In this document: positions 14,272-21,664 of the stretch, one piece after another
How the letters are laid out: the number at the start of each line of letters is the position of its first letter
Position numbering within the stretch: position 1 is the first letter of the stretch
NCBI RefSeq assembly: GCF_000328525.1
Contig: NC_019964.1
Location: 1,178,001-1,242,000, forward strand
Reading direction: 5' to 3'
Source: Halovivax ruber XH-70
GTDB lineage: Archaea; Halobacteriota; Halobacteria; Halobacteriales; Natrialbaceae
DNA length: 64,000 nt
Notes under the pieces: generated by a model
What the model was told of the DNA's origin: nothing
The model's database searches: none
Seen by the model: the letters and a program-made list of their open reading frames with translations, nothing else
Program-made: the position numbers and the translations under genes

Positions 14272-15060
14272 TCACTCGCCGGCGAGGTCGCCAGAGCGAA
14301 TCCGATCTTCCGCCGCTGCCAGCGCCTCCGCTCGATCGAACGAGTCGACGATCTCGCGCAGCGTCGCGTCGTCCGCATCGGCGAGCGCCCGGGCGTGCTC
14401 GGTCGTGTTCGGAAATGCTCGAATGATGTTGTCCACGATCGGGATCGCCGCGACCTGTGGGGAGCGAGACAGCGGGTTGAGGTCGACGACGATTTCCGTT
14501 TTCCCCATCTCCGAGAGCGCTTCTGCGCGATCGCCGTCCTCTAGTGGGACGACGACGACGTCTGCCTCGTAGATTCCCTCGGCGTCGACCTTGCTCCGTT
14601 CGTGGTCGAGCTCCGGAATGCGCGCGTCGGCGTCGAGACCCAGGACGTCCTCGGCACCGTGGTCGCGGAGGTGATCGGCGATGCGCTCCATTCGTTCGGG
14701 TGTCCGATTGAACAGGTTGATCTCGATCGCCGCGTTCACGGTCGACGCCAGGTCGACGACCTCGCCAGGGACGAGCGCGGCGACGTTGCCGTTGACGGAG
14801 ATGACGGGGTGGTCGGCCAGCAGTAACTGCGCCGCCGCGGCTCGTTCGGCGTCGTCGGCACTCGGAATCGTCTCCTCGCCGAGGAGGTAATCGAACGCGC
14901 TGCCACGACCCTCGGCGTGCATTCCCTGCAGGTGTGTGATACCCTTCTCGACGCCCGCTTCGATCCGATGGCGGGTGAGCAGGTCCTGATACCGGGGGTG
15001 GTCCGTCGGTATTTCGGTCTCGTCGTCGACGGCCGACGGGACGCTCTCGTACTCGGTCAC
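14272..15060 (-). CDS. 4-phosphopantoate--beta-alanine ligase (phosphopantothenate synthetase)
   Basis: The 262-aa protein is the archaeal phosphopantothenate synthetase (PPS). It joins 4-phosphopantoate and beta-alanine using ATP in the archaeal route to CoA. Family motifs include HPRYQDLLTRHRIEAGVEKG, GRGSAFDYLLGEET, SVNGNVAALVPGE, INLFNRTPERM and VDLNPLSRSPQVA, with DNIIRAFPN near the end. The start codon is GTG (15058-15060). Pantoate kinase, which makes its substrate, is encoded on the same strand at 18232-19059, with the DUF1508-repeat gene between them. Confidence 0.95.
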   Translation of the reverse strand: MTEYESVPSAVDDETEIPTDHPRYQDLLTRHRIEAGVEKGITHLQGMHAEGRGSAFDYLLGEETIPSADDAERAAAAQLLLADHPVISVNGNVAALVPGEVVDLASTVNAAIEINLFNRTPERMERIADHLRDHGAEDVLGLDADARIPELDHERSKVDAEGIYEADVVVVPLEDGDRAEALSEMGKTEIVVDLNPLSRSPQVAAIPIVDNIIRAFPNTTEHARALADADDATLREIVDSFDRAEALAAAEDRIRSGDLAGE

Positions 15061-15151: not shown

Positions 15152-17950
15152 CTACTCGGTGAACTCGATCCAGCCGTCCGGGGCGTGGACCTTGACGTTG
15201 GTCATCGCATCTCGGGCTTCGGTCCGGCTCTCGTAGGTCTTCGTGCTCTCGGACATCGGTTCGCCGTGCTCGTCGACCAGTTGCCAGATCCAGCCGTCGT
15301 CGTCGTAGTGCAACTCGAACGAGACGCCGTCGATCTCCAGGATACTCGCCTTGGGGATCACGTCCCGGATCTGTTCCACCGACGTCTCGGCCCCGTCCAT
15401 CGTCTCGAAGGACTCGATGCACTTCGCGACGACCTGGCCGTCTTCGTCGATGAGTCGCCAGCTCCAGCCCTCCTCGTCGGAGATGAATTCGTAGGAGGCG
15501 ACGTCGAAGTCGACCTGGCCTGCGGCCGGTGCGAGCCGACGGATCTCGTCGACCACGTCCCTCGCGTCCGACTCGTCGTCGACCGTCGTTCCGGAAGTCG
15601 CGAGCACGTCTCGATCCTGGTCGACGAGGTCCCACGTCCAGCCGTCGCCGTTGGTGAGCCTGATGAGGGCGGTTTCGACGTGGAAGATCGGCGCGTCGGG
15701 GGCCTTCGAAACCAGTTCGTGGATCGCCGTCTCGACTGCCTGGCGCGAATCGTAGGTGACCTGGGAGGACGCGATGAGCTCTCGATCCCGGTCGAGGAGA
15801 CGCCAGTGCCAGGAGCCAGACCCGGCGAGCTGGACGAACAGTTCACCGATTCGGGAGCGGTCGGCGTTCGAGGCGACGTCGCGAATCCGGTCGATCCCTT
15901 CGACGATCTCGTCCTGTGTCGGGGCCGACTCTTCGCTCTCGGCCACCACGGTTCCGTCCGGCATGACGAAGCGCCAGAACCACTCGTCCTCGTCGACGTA
16001 GGTCTGGAACGCGGCGTGTTCCATCGTCTGGCTCGCCGTGTCGATGTTCTCGACGAGCTGATCCATCGCCTGCTTCGCTGCCTGCCGGTTGGGGTGGGAG
16101 TTCGGATCCTCGGCGATGAGTTTCCCACCGTCGTCGATGAGCCGCCAGCCCCACTCGCCGTCGTCGACGAACAGCTCGAACGCTGCCCTCTCGATCTCGA
16201 GCAGTTCCGCGTCGGGGGCCTGCTCTTTGAGCGTCATCATCGCTTCTGCGGCCTCGCCCTTCGAGCCGTGCTCGGCGCCGCTGTCGGCGAGGACGTTGCC
16301 GTCCTCGTCGATGAGTCGCCAGCGCCACTCCCCCGTGTCGGCTTCGTAGACCTGGAACGCGGAGTTCTCGAACTCGATGAGCTCCGCTTCGCTCGCCTGA
16401 TTCTGCATCCGCTCGATGGCGTCGGCGGCGTCCTCCGCGCTGTCGTGAGGCTCGGTGCTCGCGGCGACGATGTTTCGGTCCTCGTCGACCAGCCGCCAGC
16501 GCCAGTGCCCGTCGGTCTTGTAGCGTTCGTAGAGCGCGCCGTCGATCTCGAAGACGTCCGCATCTTCGACGTTGTTCGCGAACAGGTCGGTCGTGCGCGC
16601 CATCTCGTCGTAGCCTGGCGCACTGTTCGGGTTCCGGGCGACGATCTGTTCGTCGTACCCGACCAGCCGCCAGCGCCACTCCTCACCGGAGCTGTAGAGT
16701 TCGTAGGTCGGCTCGCCGGAGACCGTGACGGCCATCTCGCCAAACGATTCGAGGAGGGCCTCGACGGCTTCCTCGGCGTCGCGTCGCGTCTCGTAGGCGC
16801 GCTCCGACCGGCCGATCTCTTCGTCGTCGGTACCGACGAAGCGCCAGTACCAGCCACCGTCCTCGTCGATGAGTTCGATGGCGACGTGCTCCATCGCGAG
16901 CAGGCGCGCGTTCTCGAAGTGGTCGACGAACGCAGACGATCCGGCCTTCGCGTCGGCCTTGCTCGTGTAACCCGTCGGGGAGACGGCCAGCGGTTCACGG
17001 TTCCCGTCGAGCAGTTGCCAGTGCCACCGATCGCGACTCTCGTAGTAGTTGAACGCGGCGTCGTCGATCTCGATGACGCCGGCGACCGGGCCGCGGTCCT
17101 TGAGGAAGCTGACCGATTCCTCGGCCCCGTCGCGCGTCTCGAACTGATCGCCACACCGGGCGACGACGCTGCCGTCGTCGCGCACGAGTGTCCACTCCCA
17201 CTGCCCATCACGTGTTTCGTAGAGCCTGAACGCGGATGTCGTCAGTTCCATCAGGCCCGCGGAGCCGATCTGGGACTTGACCTCCTCGATGTCCGCTTGC
17301 GCATCAGGTCGTGTCAGTGCACTCTCCTGACTCGCGGCGAGTGCCTCCAGGTGGAGGACGTGCCAGGACCAGTCGTCGTTCTCGTCACGGAAGACGGCGA
17401 ACTGCGCACCCTCCATCGCATCGCCCGTCAGTACCGGTGGGTCTTCCGTGGCACCCTCCTCAGAGACGTATTTCCCCTTTCGGCCAGTGATGACGGGGAC
17501 GAGTGCGGTCACACCGGCGATGATTCCAAGCCCGACGGCGTACAGCCCGAGTACCTGCAGCGTGTAGTCGGGTCCGTCGCCGAGTCCACGCCAGTGGTCG
17601 GGATAGGCGATGCCGAACGTCGCGGTCCCGACGAGCGCGATGACGAGTCCAACGGCGCTCGCCTGGATCGCCCGCTTTCGGACCGGCAGCATGAGTACGA
17701 GTCCGAACAGGCCCAGAATGGCCCCGAACGAACCGACGATTCCGACGACCCTGTTGACCAGGAACTCCGCGTCCGAGCGCGGTTCGGTCGCGCCGAAGTT
17801 CACGATGTAGAGGACAACGGCGATGCCACCCAGAATGAAGCCTGCAACGAATAGCCAGTAGCCGTACGCGTCTTTTACTGATTCCGGTTCCCCCACGTAA
17901 TGTTCGTACAATCGAAGTAATTTATCGCTGAAATTCCGTATCGAAGACAT
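15152..17950 (-). CDS. Membrane protein with 13 tandem DUF1508 (HVO_2922-type) repeats
   Basis: This 932-aa protein begins with ~160 residues holding about four membrane helices (YGYWLFVAGFILGGIAVVLY, VVGIVGSFGAILGLFGLVLM, SAVGLVIALVGTATF, VLGLYAVGLGIIAGVTALVP). After it come 13 head-to-tail units of 57-60 residues. Each has a W-x-W core (WRWRLVDEDRNIVA, WRWRLIDEDGNVLA, WGWRLIDDGGKLIA), a Y/F-x-S/T-x-x-x-A helix start and a hydrophobic end strand. The pattern matches the DUF1508/YegP/HVO_2922 family, which normally occurs as one or two units. The function is unknown; a large soluble array on a membrane anchor suggests a scaffold or binding surface. It lies between the two CoA pathway genes, with no shared function apparent. 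Confidence 0.87.
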   Translation of the reverse strand: MSSIRNFSDKLLRLYEHYVGEPESVKDAYGYWLFVAGFILGGIAVVLYIVNFGATEPRSDAEFLVNRVVGIVGSFGAILGLFGLVLMLPVRKRAIQASAVGLVIALVGTATFGIAYPDHWRGLGDGPDYTLQVLGLYAVGLGIIAGVTALVPVITGRKGKYVSEEGATEDPPVLTGDAMEGAQFAVFRDENDDWSWHVLHLEALAASQESALTRPDAQADIEEVKSQIGSAGLMELTTSAFRLYETRDGQWEWTLVRDDGSVVARCGDQFETRDGAEESVSFLKDRGPVAGVIEIDDAAFNYYESRDRWHWQLLDGNREPLAVSPTGYTSKADAKAGSSAFVDHFENARLLAMEHVAIELIDEDGGWYWRFVGTDDEEIGRSERAYETRRDAEEAVEALLESFGEMAVTVSGEPTYELYSSGEEWRWRLVGYDEQIVARNPNSAPGYDEMARTTDLFANNVEDADVFEIDGALYERYKTDGHWRWRLVDEDRNIVAASTEPHDSAEDAADAIERMQNQASEAELIEFENSAFQVYEADTGEWRWRLIDEDGNVLADSGAEHGSKGEAAEAMMTLKEQAPDAELLEIERAAFELFVDDGEWGWRLIDDGGKLIAEDPNSHPNRQAAKQAMDQLVENIDTASQTMEHAAFQTYVDEDEWFWRFVMPDGTVVAESEESAPTQDEIVEGIDRIRDVASNADRSRIGELFVQLAGSGSWHWRLLDRDRELIASSQVTYDSRQAVETAIHELVSKAPDAPIFHVETALIRLTNGDGWTWDLVDQDRDVLATSGTTVDDESDARDVVDEIRRLAPAAGQVDFDVASYEFISDEEGWSWRLIDEDGQVVAKCIESFETMDGAETSVEQIRDVIPKASILEIDGVSFELHYDDDGWIWQLVDEHGEPMSESTKTYESRTEARDAMTNVKVHAPDGWIEFTE

Positions 17951-18231
17951 GGGATTCGAACGGATAACTCAAACGGAGCATAATAAAGCATCGGCTAGGT
18001 GTAGAATGGTGGACAGAATGTCCCGGTGGGTGACACCCGTTCAAGCAAAGCTATCCGTGTTGTTCGGCCCGGTCCGCGCAATGATCTGAAGATATCCGAC
18101 GAATTGATCTACTTCGCTAAATCATCTCTCGCTGATCCGACACCAGCTGGGTGCTGCCCTGGTCGGCGGCGGTCCCACAATTCGTGATCGATCTGTCGGC
18201 CTTGTGGGTATTCTCGGTTAGCGTGGGCCGA

Positions 18232-19059
18232 TCACTCGAGCGTCGCGCCGGCTGGGTGGGTGACGCACCACTCCGGATCGTATCCCGCGTCGCTGAGTCC
18301 AGTACCGAGTGCGAAGACCGTCTCGCCGAGCATCGCCATCGACGCCTGCCCACCCGCTTCGCTGACTGCCCTGATCGCTTCGGTTACCGTCGGCGTCAAC
18401 AGGTCGGTCTCCCGGGCGAACTCCCGGGAGGCGTAGATGAAGGATCCGAGTGTCGGTTCCGAGACGACGCGTGACAGGGCGGTCTGGCCGGCCTGCGTGA
18501 TGTGATCTGTCTCTCCGGTGAGCACGTCCGCCGTCGACAGTTCGCCGAACGAGACGTATTCGACTCGGGCGCGATCGGGAATCCCATCGAGGGTGCCGTG
18601 TGGGGGGCTGCCAGGTTCGAGGCGGATCGGGATCCCCCCGCGGGCCTGTGCGACGACGTCCCCGAGGCCGGTTCCAGACTGCACTTCGGCCCCGTGTGCG
18701 ATCGTCACGAGTTCGTTCGTCGAGAGGCCGCGCTCGAAGACTCGGTTCGCAGCGAGCGCTGCACCGAGTGAAAGCCCGCCGGACACCCCGAACCCTGCTC
18801 CGAGTGGGACTGCCGCGGTCGCTTCGACTGTGGCGGTGACCTCGAGTGCATCGAGCACTCGCTCGACGGGTGCCATTTCGACCGCCTCATCGTTCAGTAC
18901 GATCGAGGTCGCATCGTCCGGCCGGACGGTTACCGAAACGCCGTCCGACAGTGTGAGTCCGGCGCCGCGAGACCCGGCTTTGGTCGGGTCGGGATCCGGC
19001 TGTGTCGTGAAAAATCCCGTAATGTGTCCCGGAACGAATGCGGATACCGCTTCACCCAT
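18232..19059 (-). CDS. Pantoate kinase (GHMP family)
   Basis: The 275-aa protein phosphorylates pantoate in the archaeal CoA pathway and feeds PPS (14272-15060). It has the pantoate kinase N-terminus EAVSAFVPGHITGFF, the GHMP ATP-binding loop TAAVPLGAGFGVSGGLSLGA and the later GTGLGDVVAQARGGIPIR glycine-rich motif. The frame is open 213 nt upstream of the chosen start, but that part is poor in family-like sequence, and ATG 19059 (MGEAVSAF) begins the conserved fold. It ends 281 bp before the DUF1508-repeat gene. Confidence 0.94.
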   Translation of the reverse strand: MGEAVSAFVPGHITGFFTTQPDPDPTKAGSRGAGLTLSDGVSVTVRPDDATSIVLNDEAVEMAPVERVLDALEVTATVEATAAVPLGAGFGVSGGLSLGAALAANRVFERGLSTNELVTIAHGAEVQSGTGLGDVVAQARGGIPIRLEPGSPPHGTLDGIPDRARVEYVSFGELSTADVLTGETDHITQAGQTALSRVVSEPTLGSFIYASREFARETDLLTPTVTEAIRAVSEAGGQASMAMLGETVFALGTGLSDAGYDPEWCVTHPAGATLE

Positions 19060-19375
19060 TGGCGAACCCTTCGCGTGAACGGGGATAAGGGTGAAGATTC
19101 TCATTTTGAACCCGGTCTGGCTAGTCGACCACTCGCTGCGTCGGCACGTTGGGTGCGCTTCGGCCACTCTTGCGCCCCATCCCTCCGTGTCCGTCGTCTC
19201 GTCGTGCGGAATCTGGTCGGCCCGACTGTCCGCGATCGGTATTGGGGCTGCTCGATGCCTTATCTCTCGCAATTCTGAGGGTTCTAACCGGGGCGGAAAT
19301 CACCGCTTGTCAGCGTGGTGGCTGTTATTTCGATTACTATATCTGTGATGCGATGAATAACAGGATAGCATAGGT
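19060..19375. other. Divergent promoter region of pantoate kinase and a transducer
   Basis: This 316-bp interval has no convincing gene. Its right end (19325-19375) is AT-rich with TTACTATATC about 40 bp before the transducer ATG, a plausible TATA region. The left part overlaps the open but non-conserved extension of the pantoate kinase frame. Confidence 0.5.
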
Positions 19376-21664
19376 ATGGCGGGATTCAATCCGATAACAG
19401 GGGTACGTCGACGATACGCGGTGAAGCTGGTGCTGTTACTGCTGGCGGTGGCAGTCCTCGTGGGTGGATTTGGGGGATTGATTTACGCACAGACGGGCGC
19501 GACGCTACAGGACGACACCGAGGCAGATCTGGAACACGTCACCGAACTACAGGCGTCGTCGATCGAAGAGCGTCTCGCGGCGAACCAGCGCCAGACGGTG
19601 ATGCTATCCCAGACCTCGGTCCTGCAGAGCGGTGAGCAGGCCCAGATCCAGCAGTTCATCGACGGCCAGGTCCGCACGATGGATGAGGCCGTTCTGGGAA
19701 TCCACTACGTCGATGCGAGTGCTGGAACCATCGAAGCCAGCACGATCGATGGAGCGACCGGCTCGGCCGGGGACGTGTCGTGGATCACGGACGGCTACGG
19801 CGACGGCGAACCCGTGCTGGCAGGGCCGTACGAGGACCCGGACACGAACACCCACACCGGCGTCATCGTGATGGACGTCGACGAATCGCATCGGGTCGCC
19901 GTTCTCTTCGACATGGCGGCGATCTCGGCGGATATCTCGACCGGCAGCGATGTCGGTGCCTCCACGCTCGTCATCACCGAAAGCGAGAACAAGGTCGTCA
20001 TTAGCGATACCGAGGACTCCCTCGGCAAGATCGATCCCCGATTCGAAGAGGTCTCGTTCGACGACGGCTCCGGGTACGCGGAACTCGACCTGAACGATGC
20101 CGACTCGACGGATGCGGCCGGCCAGGAGACCGTCGAATTCGATCAGACGGAGGGGACCATGGCGATCGGCTACTCGGTCATTCCGGGCACGGACTGGGTC
20201 GTCATGACGCACGAACCCAAATCACAGGCATTCGCACTCCGGTCTGATATCACGCAGTCGCTCGCAGGCCTCGTCGCGGTCGCCGTCCTCGGACTCGGGC
20301 TGATCGGCCTCGTCGTCGGCCGCAACACCAGCGGATCGCTTCGGACGCTCGCCTCGAAAGCCCGGGAGCTCGAATCGGGCAATCTGGAGACGGAACTCGA
20401 GTCCGATCGGATCGACGAGATCGGTCAGCTCTACGACGCGTTCGACAGCATGCGCCACTCGCTCGTCGACTCGATCGAACAGGCCGAGTCGGCACGCGAG
20501 CGAGCCGAGAATCGCGGTGAGGAACTCGCAGAACTGGCGACACACCTCCAGACGAAGGCCGAGTCGTTCCACGACGTCATGGAAGACGCGGCCGACGGCG
20601 ACATGACGGCGCGGATGGACACGGCGAGCCAGCACGAAGCGATGGAGGCCATCGCCAGCGAGTACAACCAGATGATGGACGAGATCGCCGCGACGACGGA
20701 CGAACTCAAACACTTCGCCGAGGAGGTGGCCGCCCACAGCCAGCAGGTCACGGCGAGTGCTCAGGAGGTCCAGACGGCCAGCAGCAAGGTGACTGACTCC
20801 GTCCAGGAGATCTCGACCAGCACGGACGAGCAGTACGAGACGTTCCAGACCGTCGCCACCGAGATGGACGACCTCGCGGCGACGACCGAGGAGATCGCGT
20901 CTCTCTCCGACGACGTGAGTCGGATCGCCGAGCAGACGGCCGAGGCCGGCGACCACGGTCAGTCCGCAGCCGAGTCGGCGATCGAGGCGATCGACGACAT
21001 CGACGACGACGCGGCGAACGCGGTCGCGGAGATCGAACACCTCCAGGACCAGATCGACGAGATCGAGGAGATCACGGAGTTCATCCAGGAAGTGGCCAAG
21101 CAGACCAACATGCTGGCGCTGAACGCGAACATCGAGGCCTCGCGGAGCGGAGACGAGACCGACGAAGGGTTCTCCGCAGTCGCCGAGGAGGTCAAGGATC
21201 TGGCGCTCGACGTGCAGGACTCCGCCGAGGAGATCGACAGCCTCGTCCAGAAGATCCAGACGCAGGGATCGCGAACCGCATCGGAGGTCCGAGAGACGCG
21301 GGACGCGGTCGCTCGCAATGCCGATGCGGTCTCCGAGGCCGTGGAGGCGCTGGACGACATCGCCGAGTACGCGGCGGAGACCCACGACGGGACCGAGGAG
21401 ATCAGCGCTGCCAGCCAGCAACAGGCCAGCTCGATCCAGGACGTCGTCTCACTGGTGGCCGAAGCCGAGGCGGAGAGCGAACGGGTCAGTGCCGAGGCGA
21501 GTACGGCCGCCGCGGCTGCGGAGGAACAGACGACGGCCCTCTCCGAAGTGACCGAGAGCGCGTCCGACCTCGCACAGCGCTCCGGCACGCTCCAGGAGCG
21601 TCTCGACGAGTTCGACACGCCAGGGGACACTGCCACCCCGCAGCAGGTCGACGCCGACGACTGA
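19376..21664 (+). CDS. Methyl-accepting chemotaxis transducer (cache-type)
   Basis: This 762-aa receptor has a first membrane helix at ~17-39, an extracellular cache-like sensor at ~40-290, a second helix at ~296-316, a HAMP domain (RTLASKARELESGNLETE) and a long coiled-coil signalling domain. The tip that contacts CheA/CheW is [19 protein letters not shown] followed by GFSAVAEEVKDLA. The sensor end (GYSVIPGTDWVVMTHEPKSQAFAL) resembles that of the second transducer at 54089-56485, so the two are paralogues. The ligand is unknown. The C-terminus lacks a CheR-binding pentapeptide like that of E. coli Tar. It is a single gene, not near che genes here. Confidence 0.93.
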   Translation: MAGFNPITGVRRRYAVKLVLLLLAVAVLVGGFGGLIYAQTGATLQDDTEADLEHVTELQASSIEERLAANQRQTVMLSQTSVLQSGEQAQIQQFIDGQVRTMDEAVLGIHYVDASAGTIEASTIDGATGSAGDVSWITDGYGDGEPVLAGPYEDPDTNTHTGVIVMDVDESHRVAVLFDMAAISADISTGSDVGASTLVITESENKVVISDTEDSLGKIDPRFEEVSFDDGSGYAELDLNDADSTDAAGQETVEFDQTEGTMAIGYSVIPGTDWVVMTHEPKSQAFALRSDITQSLAGLVAVAVLGLGLIGLVVGRNTSGSLRTLASKARELESGNLETELESDRIDEIGQLYDAFDSMRHSLVDSIEQAESARERAENRGEELAELATHLQTKAESFHDVMEDAADGDMTARMDTASQHEAMEAIASEYNQMMDEIAATTDELKHFAEEVAAHSQQVTASAQEVQTASSKVTDSVQEISTSTDEQYETFQTVATEMDDLAATTEEIASLSDDVSRIAEQTAEAGDHGQSAAESAIEAIDDIDDDAANAVAEIEHLQDQIDEIEEITEFIQEVAKQTNMLALNANIEASRSGDETDEGFSAVAEEVKDLALDVQDSAEEIDSLVQKIQTQGSRTASEVRETRDAVARNADAVSEAVEALDDIAEYAAETHDGTEEISAASQQQASSIQDVVSLVAEAEAESERVSAEASTAAAAAEEQTTALSEVTESASDLAQRSGTLQERLDEFDTPGDTATPQQVDADD

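Follow-up and report, generated by a model that had tools for sequence, protein, structure and literature searches.

A haloarchaeal protein family with a DUF7139 membrane anchor and an array of 13 DUF1508 units

The product of an ORF on the minus strand of Halovivax ruber DNA (15152-17950; ATG start, 932 aa) combines a four-helix DUF7139 membrane anchor with a tail of 13 DUF1508 units, and belongs to a real, conserved and widespread haloarchaeal protein family in which the number and order of the units are kept. Coordinates refer to the window, i.e. the whole stretch of 64,000 nucleotides that was analysed. No description of this family and no experiment on it was found in the literature searched.

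Architecture of the array protein

The N-terminus of the protein was matched by Pfam to DUF7139 (PF23600; residues 10-158; E 2e-37; 128.5 bits against a cut-off of 30), the remainder to DUF1508 (PF07411; 12 stretches; E 3e-83; 273.8 bits against 22) and, in NCBIfam, to the HVO_2922 family (NF041908; 13 stretches; 289.8 bits against 90). Matches to an IS6 transposase and to a tryptophan-tRNA ligase in the NCBIfam search were rejected, being far under their cut-offs. A profile built from the units placed 13 of them at residues 179-930, with all 13 W-x-W cores present and spaced 57-59 residues; identity of the units to unit 7 is 25-44%. Pfam, NCBIfam, the unit profile and hydropathy thus bear out the earlier note, which had described 13 DUF1508 units of 57-60 residues, placed after four membrane helices, that keep the W-x-W core and diverge elsewhere. 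As to the membrane anchor, the four helices stand; what the note had missed is that the anchor is itself a recognised domain, DUF7139. In the list below, helices were placed by hydropathy and units by the unit profile.

15152-17950 (-): coding sequence, DUF7139 membrane anchor plus 13 DUF1508 units (ORF call, Pfam, NCBIfam, unit profile)
17477-17923 (-): DUF7139 (PF23600), residues 10-158, four membrane helices (Pfam; hydropathy and loop charges)
17795-17869 (-): membrane helix 1, about residues 28-52
17681-17755 (-): membrane helix 2, about residues 66-90
17603-17671 (-): membrane helix 3, about residues 94-116
17486-17563 (-): membrane helix 4, about residues 130-155
17243-17413 (-): DUF1508 unit 1, WSW
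17069-17242 (-): DUF1508 unit 2, WEW
16895-17068 (-): DUF1508 unit 3, WHW
16721-16894 (-): DUF1508 unit 4, WYW
16547-16720 (-): DUF1508 unit 5, WRW
16370-16546 (-): DUF1508 unit 6, WRW
16196-16369 (-): DUF1508 unit 7, WRW; the most conserved and most HVO_2922-like
16025-16195 (-): DUF1508 unit 8, WGW
15854-16024 (-): DUF1508 unit 9, WFW
15683-15853 (-): DUF1508 unit 10, WHW
15509-15682 (-): DUF1508 unit 11, WTW
15335-15508 (-): DUF1508 unit 12, WSW
15155-15334 (-): DUF1508 unit 13, WIW

That a long ORF of this kind merely arose in high-GC DNA has practically no chance of being true. An antisense ORF of 902 aa does overlap the same stretch, but the profile E-values of the array protein are 1e-83 and below, its orthologs are conserved, and dN/dS is 0.07-0.13 against the two nearest relatives (0.074 for the array against Halovivax asiaticus, i.e. 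purifying selection), by which an artefact is already refuted.

Hydropathy reveals the four membrane helices of DUF7139 as four hydrophobic stretches (hydropathy windows starting at residues 28-38, 63-73, 94-99 and 129-139). Three positive charges each are found in the short loop that joins helices 2 and 3 and in the segment following helix 4; the other two loops carry one. As judged from hydropathy and charges, and not by a trained predictor, both ends of DUF7139 are probably cytoplasmic; the positive-inside rule, applied to the loop charges, would likewise put the array tail in the cytoplasm.

DUF1508 is present from Escherichia coli to archaea, and stand-alone single units exist, one of them encoded in the H. 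ruber genome itself. Judging by two Haloferax genomes, a stand-alone protein is the only DUF1508 protein of Haloferax volcanii. The units of the array have the same beta-beta-beta-alpha fold as HVO_2922/UPF0339 (PDB code: 6q2z), YegP (PDB code: 2k8e) and NMB1088 (PDB code: 3bid), members of the same domain family; these are soluble proteins of one or two units, whereas the array protein has 13 and a membrane anchor. A model of units 6-7 shows beta-beta-beta-alpha twice, with low inter-unit confidence, and matches solved UPF0339 proteins (best Foldseek match 6q2z, E 2.4e-4; then 2k49, 2k8e and 3bid). Structure prediction of neighbouring units, which the earlier note had proposed, succeeded for the single units, which fold well in the two- and four-unit models; packing between neighbours is settled by neither (pTM 0.45 and 0.42, respectively).

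Unit 7 stands out by its conservation, with 60.6% mean pairwise identity across distant families (unit 13, 51.0%; the other units, 32-47%). In 18 of the 22 orthologs and 4 of 6 paralogs no other unit is as close to HVO_2922, and unit 7 alone retains most of the canonical HVO_2922 residues.

Conservation of the number and order of the units

A protein search of 234 genomes of the class, in which a match was defined as E 1e-90 or better, found by our count an array protein of this size in 58 of the 234 sampled haloarchaea: 43 of 59 genomes of the window's family, nine in family f3, five in f7 and one in f10. The 43 include at least one genome (G181) whose match is of the paralog type described below and not of the DUF7139 type. 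Since about 27% of the sampled same-family genomes are without the array, the lineage does not depend on it. The rarity that the earlier note had implied fails within the haloarchaea, where arrays are common (the case which that note had itself named as speaking against it): besides the array in 58 of 234 genomes, DUF7139 itself has one to six matches per genome in 234 of the 242 haloarchaeal genomes, and shorter DUF7139-DUF1508 proteins are found in other families.

Exactly 13 units were detected with the unit profile in all 22 full-length orthologs examined, which span four families and identities down to about 34%. Insertions between units occur in relatives, most commonly at the junction of units 5 and 6, and leave the count of 13 unchanged. 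Of the 156 units of twelve proteins, 154 are most similar to the unit with their own number in a protein of another species, and none is closer to another unit of its own protein. Recent slippage is accordingly rejected: the units cluster by position across species. Each unit is vertically descended and the units are positional orthologs. Comparing families f1 and f3 alone, the own number is the best match for 10 of 13 f1 units and for 8 of 13 f3 units; given this weaker position signal, the evidence for unit order is best within the closer groups and among them. The constant count, the positional matches and an array dN/dS of about 0.07 uphold the earlier proposal of an old array under selection.

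A group of paralogs (loci L124-L130) resembles the array protein in its units and differs from it in the anchor: DUF7139 is replaced by another N-terminal membrane anchor, with one or two hydrophobic stretches. Thirteen units were detected in 6 of the 7, and 12 in the remaining one (L126), where the match of unit 1 is probably too weak; in most of them unit 7 is again nearest to HVO_2922. One of these paralogs is encoded on a plasmid of Natrialba magadii. As 6 of 7 paralogs without DUF7139 still show 13 units, the length of the array has been kept while its anchor was exchanged.

Locus and relatives of the anchor

Three features of the locus flank the coding sequence:

17951-17990 (-): predicted promoter, with a TATA-like box TTTATTAT at -37 (17980-17987), a conserved AGTTATCCGTT element and a short leader (upstream comparison of orthologs)
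18232-19272 (-): putative pantoate kinase (PoK) gene, the conserved upstream neighbour (sequence reading; synteny)
14272-15060 (-): putative 4-phosphopantoate-beta-alanine ligase (PPS) gene, the conserved downstream neighbour (sequence reading; synteny)

Of 11 orthologs checked, 9 have a TTTATTAW box ahead of the start, as against 14 occurrences overall in the 560,040 strand-bases of these loci, which makes it very likely that the array gene has its own conserved promoter. The array gene may be co-transcribed with PPS. The names PoK and PPS are those of the families to which we take the neighbour sequences to belong. Where neighbours are visible, the order PoK-array-PPS is found in families f1, f7 and f10 and in some loci of f3; in two loci (L112, L113) only PPS was found beside the array gene, and in three others (L116-L118) the 14-kb stretch around the ortholog gave no match to either enzyme. 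Many array-less genomes have PoK and PPS side by side, and in some only PPS was found. In three array-less loci (L155-L157) the two genes are separated by 530-700 bases, and by eye no array remnant is obvious among the ORFs of these gaps. By its sequence, an ORF at 19376-21664 that diverges from PoK would encode a methyl-accepting signal transducer; it adjoins the locus in the four genomes of the window's genus.

The H. ruber genome encodes two further DUF7139 proteins. One (L071) ends in DUF7140; the gene of the other (L072:1050-3296) lies directly upstream of a gene that we read as archaeal actin of the salactin/volactin type. The DUF7139-actin order recurs in two Haloferax genomes (L144, L146) and in a further member of the window's family (L145, genome G136); genus g40 was assigned to Haloferax on an HVO_2922 identity of up to 98%. 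Haloferax also has a DUF7139 gene, an ORF of 332 codons, between a CetZ gene (about 7 kb and five or six genes away) and ftsZ1 (about 15 kb away). We take CetZ2 to be HVO_0745, in which case five intervening genes give HVO_0739, and HVO_0739 to be CdpA, a protein whose tail is cytoplasmic. Both the position of the 332-aa DUF7139 gene and the transcript size suggest that it is HVO_0739. The membrane protein HVO_0739 has a monocistronic mRNA of 1,052 nt, ftsZ1 being HVO_0717 (PMC8406309), and CdpA is mentioned among division proteins in a review (PMC12186497).

The L071 protein, equated here with HVO_0739/CdpA of Haloferax volcanii, has the four-helix DUF7139 anchor in common with the array protein; unlike the latter, it has a short tail and a cysteine-rich DUF7140 end, and no DUF1508 unit is reported in it. 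The actin-linked protein likewise shares the anchor domain and has a different tail, without DUF1508 units. Like the CdpA type, the array protein carries a DUF7139 anchor (Pfam); DUF7140, the C-terminal domain of the L071 paralog, is not among its Pfam matches, and it is not classed as CdpA. Short proteins of family f4 (L132-L136, L140) combine the same two domains as the array protein, with three to five units (unit profile), 420-648 aa and a coiled-coil-like linker. In a tree of DUF7139 domains, some forks of which have modest support, the anchors of array and short-array proteins group apart from those of the CdpA-type and actin-linked proteins.

Weaker DUF7139 matches were seen in three further families of the phylum (f13, f15, f16), most of those listed in ORFs of about 240-320 aa. 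DUF1508 units also occur in other contexts: a membrane glycosyltransferase (family 2) is fused to four units (L131:2921-5227), and a 209-aa protein has three units and no evident membrane helix in its sequence (L143:5810-6439).

Proposed role

We tentatively favour, at somewhat less than an even chance, a fixed-length scaffold that is tethered to the membrane and lies in the cytoplasm. The four-helix DUF7139 would anchor the protein, and the 13 DUF1508 units, each folded on its own, would form a fixed-length tail in the cytoplasm, serving as scaffold or spacer. In its favour are the constant count and positional descent of the units, an array length kept under an exchanged anchor, the conservation of unit 7, the loop charges, the predicted promoter and the relatives of the anchor. 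Unit 7, which keeps the residues of free-standing HVO_2922, would be where dimerisation or binding of a partner is likeliest, with the remaining units mainly setting length, spacing and position-specific contacts. Since DUF7139 is common to the probable CdpA and to the gene upstream of actin, the likeliest role would be to organise the cell envelope or the membrane on its cytoplasmic side. Against the scaffold, the locus is one of coenzyme-A biosynthesis and not of the cytoskeleton, and about 27% of the sampled same-family genomes have no array; DUF7139 may also be only a generic membrane module. We regard as rather unlikely the stronger proposal of a membrane-tethered ruler of a haloarchaeal envelope or cytoskeletal system, in which the array protein would be a third DUF7139 branch, its 13 units would be set by the geometry spanned and unit 7 would be the joining point.

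A different use of the units, to which we give a similarly low probability, would be a sequestering platform in the stress response, each unit binding the same putative ligand as YegP and HVO_2922 and the 13 copies giving avidity at the membrane. HVO_2922 is induced under perchlorate (PMC12175516), yegP of E. coli is a stress hub gene (PMC9501238), and the W-x-W core is retained in nearly all units. Outside this core, however, divergence follows position, with most HVO_2922 residues kept in unit 7 only, and if the array served avidity alone its number of units should vary, whereas the count is 13 in every ortholog. The same singularity of unit 7 is compatible with a tether for stand-alone HVO_2922, in which unit 7 would pair with the soluble homolog and store it at the membrane. 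The H. ruber genome does encode one such homolog, and the HVO_2922 structure was deposited with two chains, which fits a dimer; a second array molecule could just as well supply the unit 7 with which unit 7 pairs, and we consider the tether less probable than the platform. Least credible of these is a link to coenzyme A, by which the array protein would tether or regulate the flanking PoK and phosphopantothenate synthetase. It draws on the PoK-array-PPS order, kept in four families where neighbours are visible, but PoK and PPS do not need the array, as both stay adjacent in many genomes without it; the predicted promoter of the array gene and the L116-L118 orthologs, with neither gene matched within their 14-kb stretch, also speak against it.

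With 13 units in fixed order, one of them near the free-standing protein, the array is natural material for finding which DUF1508 surfaces matter, and the shared DUF7139 anchor suggests a membrane-protein family around archaeal FtsZ, CetZ and actin genes.

The unit profiles also match, weakly and repeatedly, baseplate proteins of contractile injection systems: 7b5h chain AD (All3315, i.e. Cis12), 9wsz Alg12 and 7aeb Algo12. These matches are of marginal significance (E 8e-4 for one profile and 0.22-0.58 for a second), and one fragment matches DUF1508 alone (E 0.002). The contractile-injection baseplate protein All3315/Cis12 was set aside as a structural precedent, given E 8e-4 or 0.22 depending on the profile and a weak fold match. 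Most of the matched stretches of Cis12 fall in an extension containing an extra domain, which forms a wide connector to the thylakoid membrane (PMC8894136).
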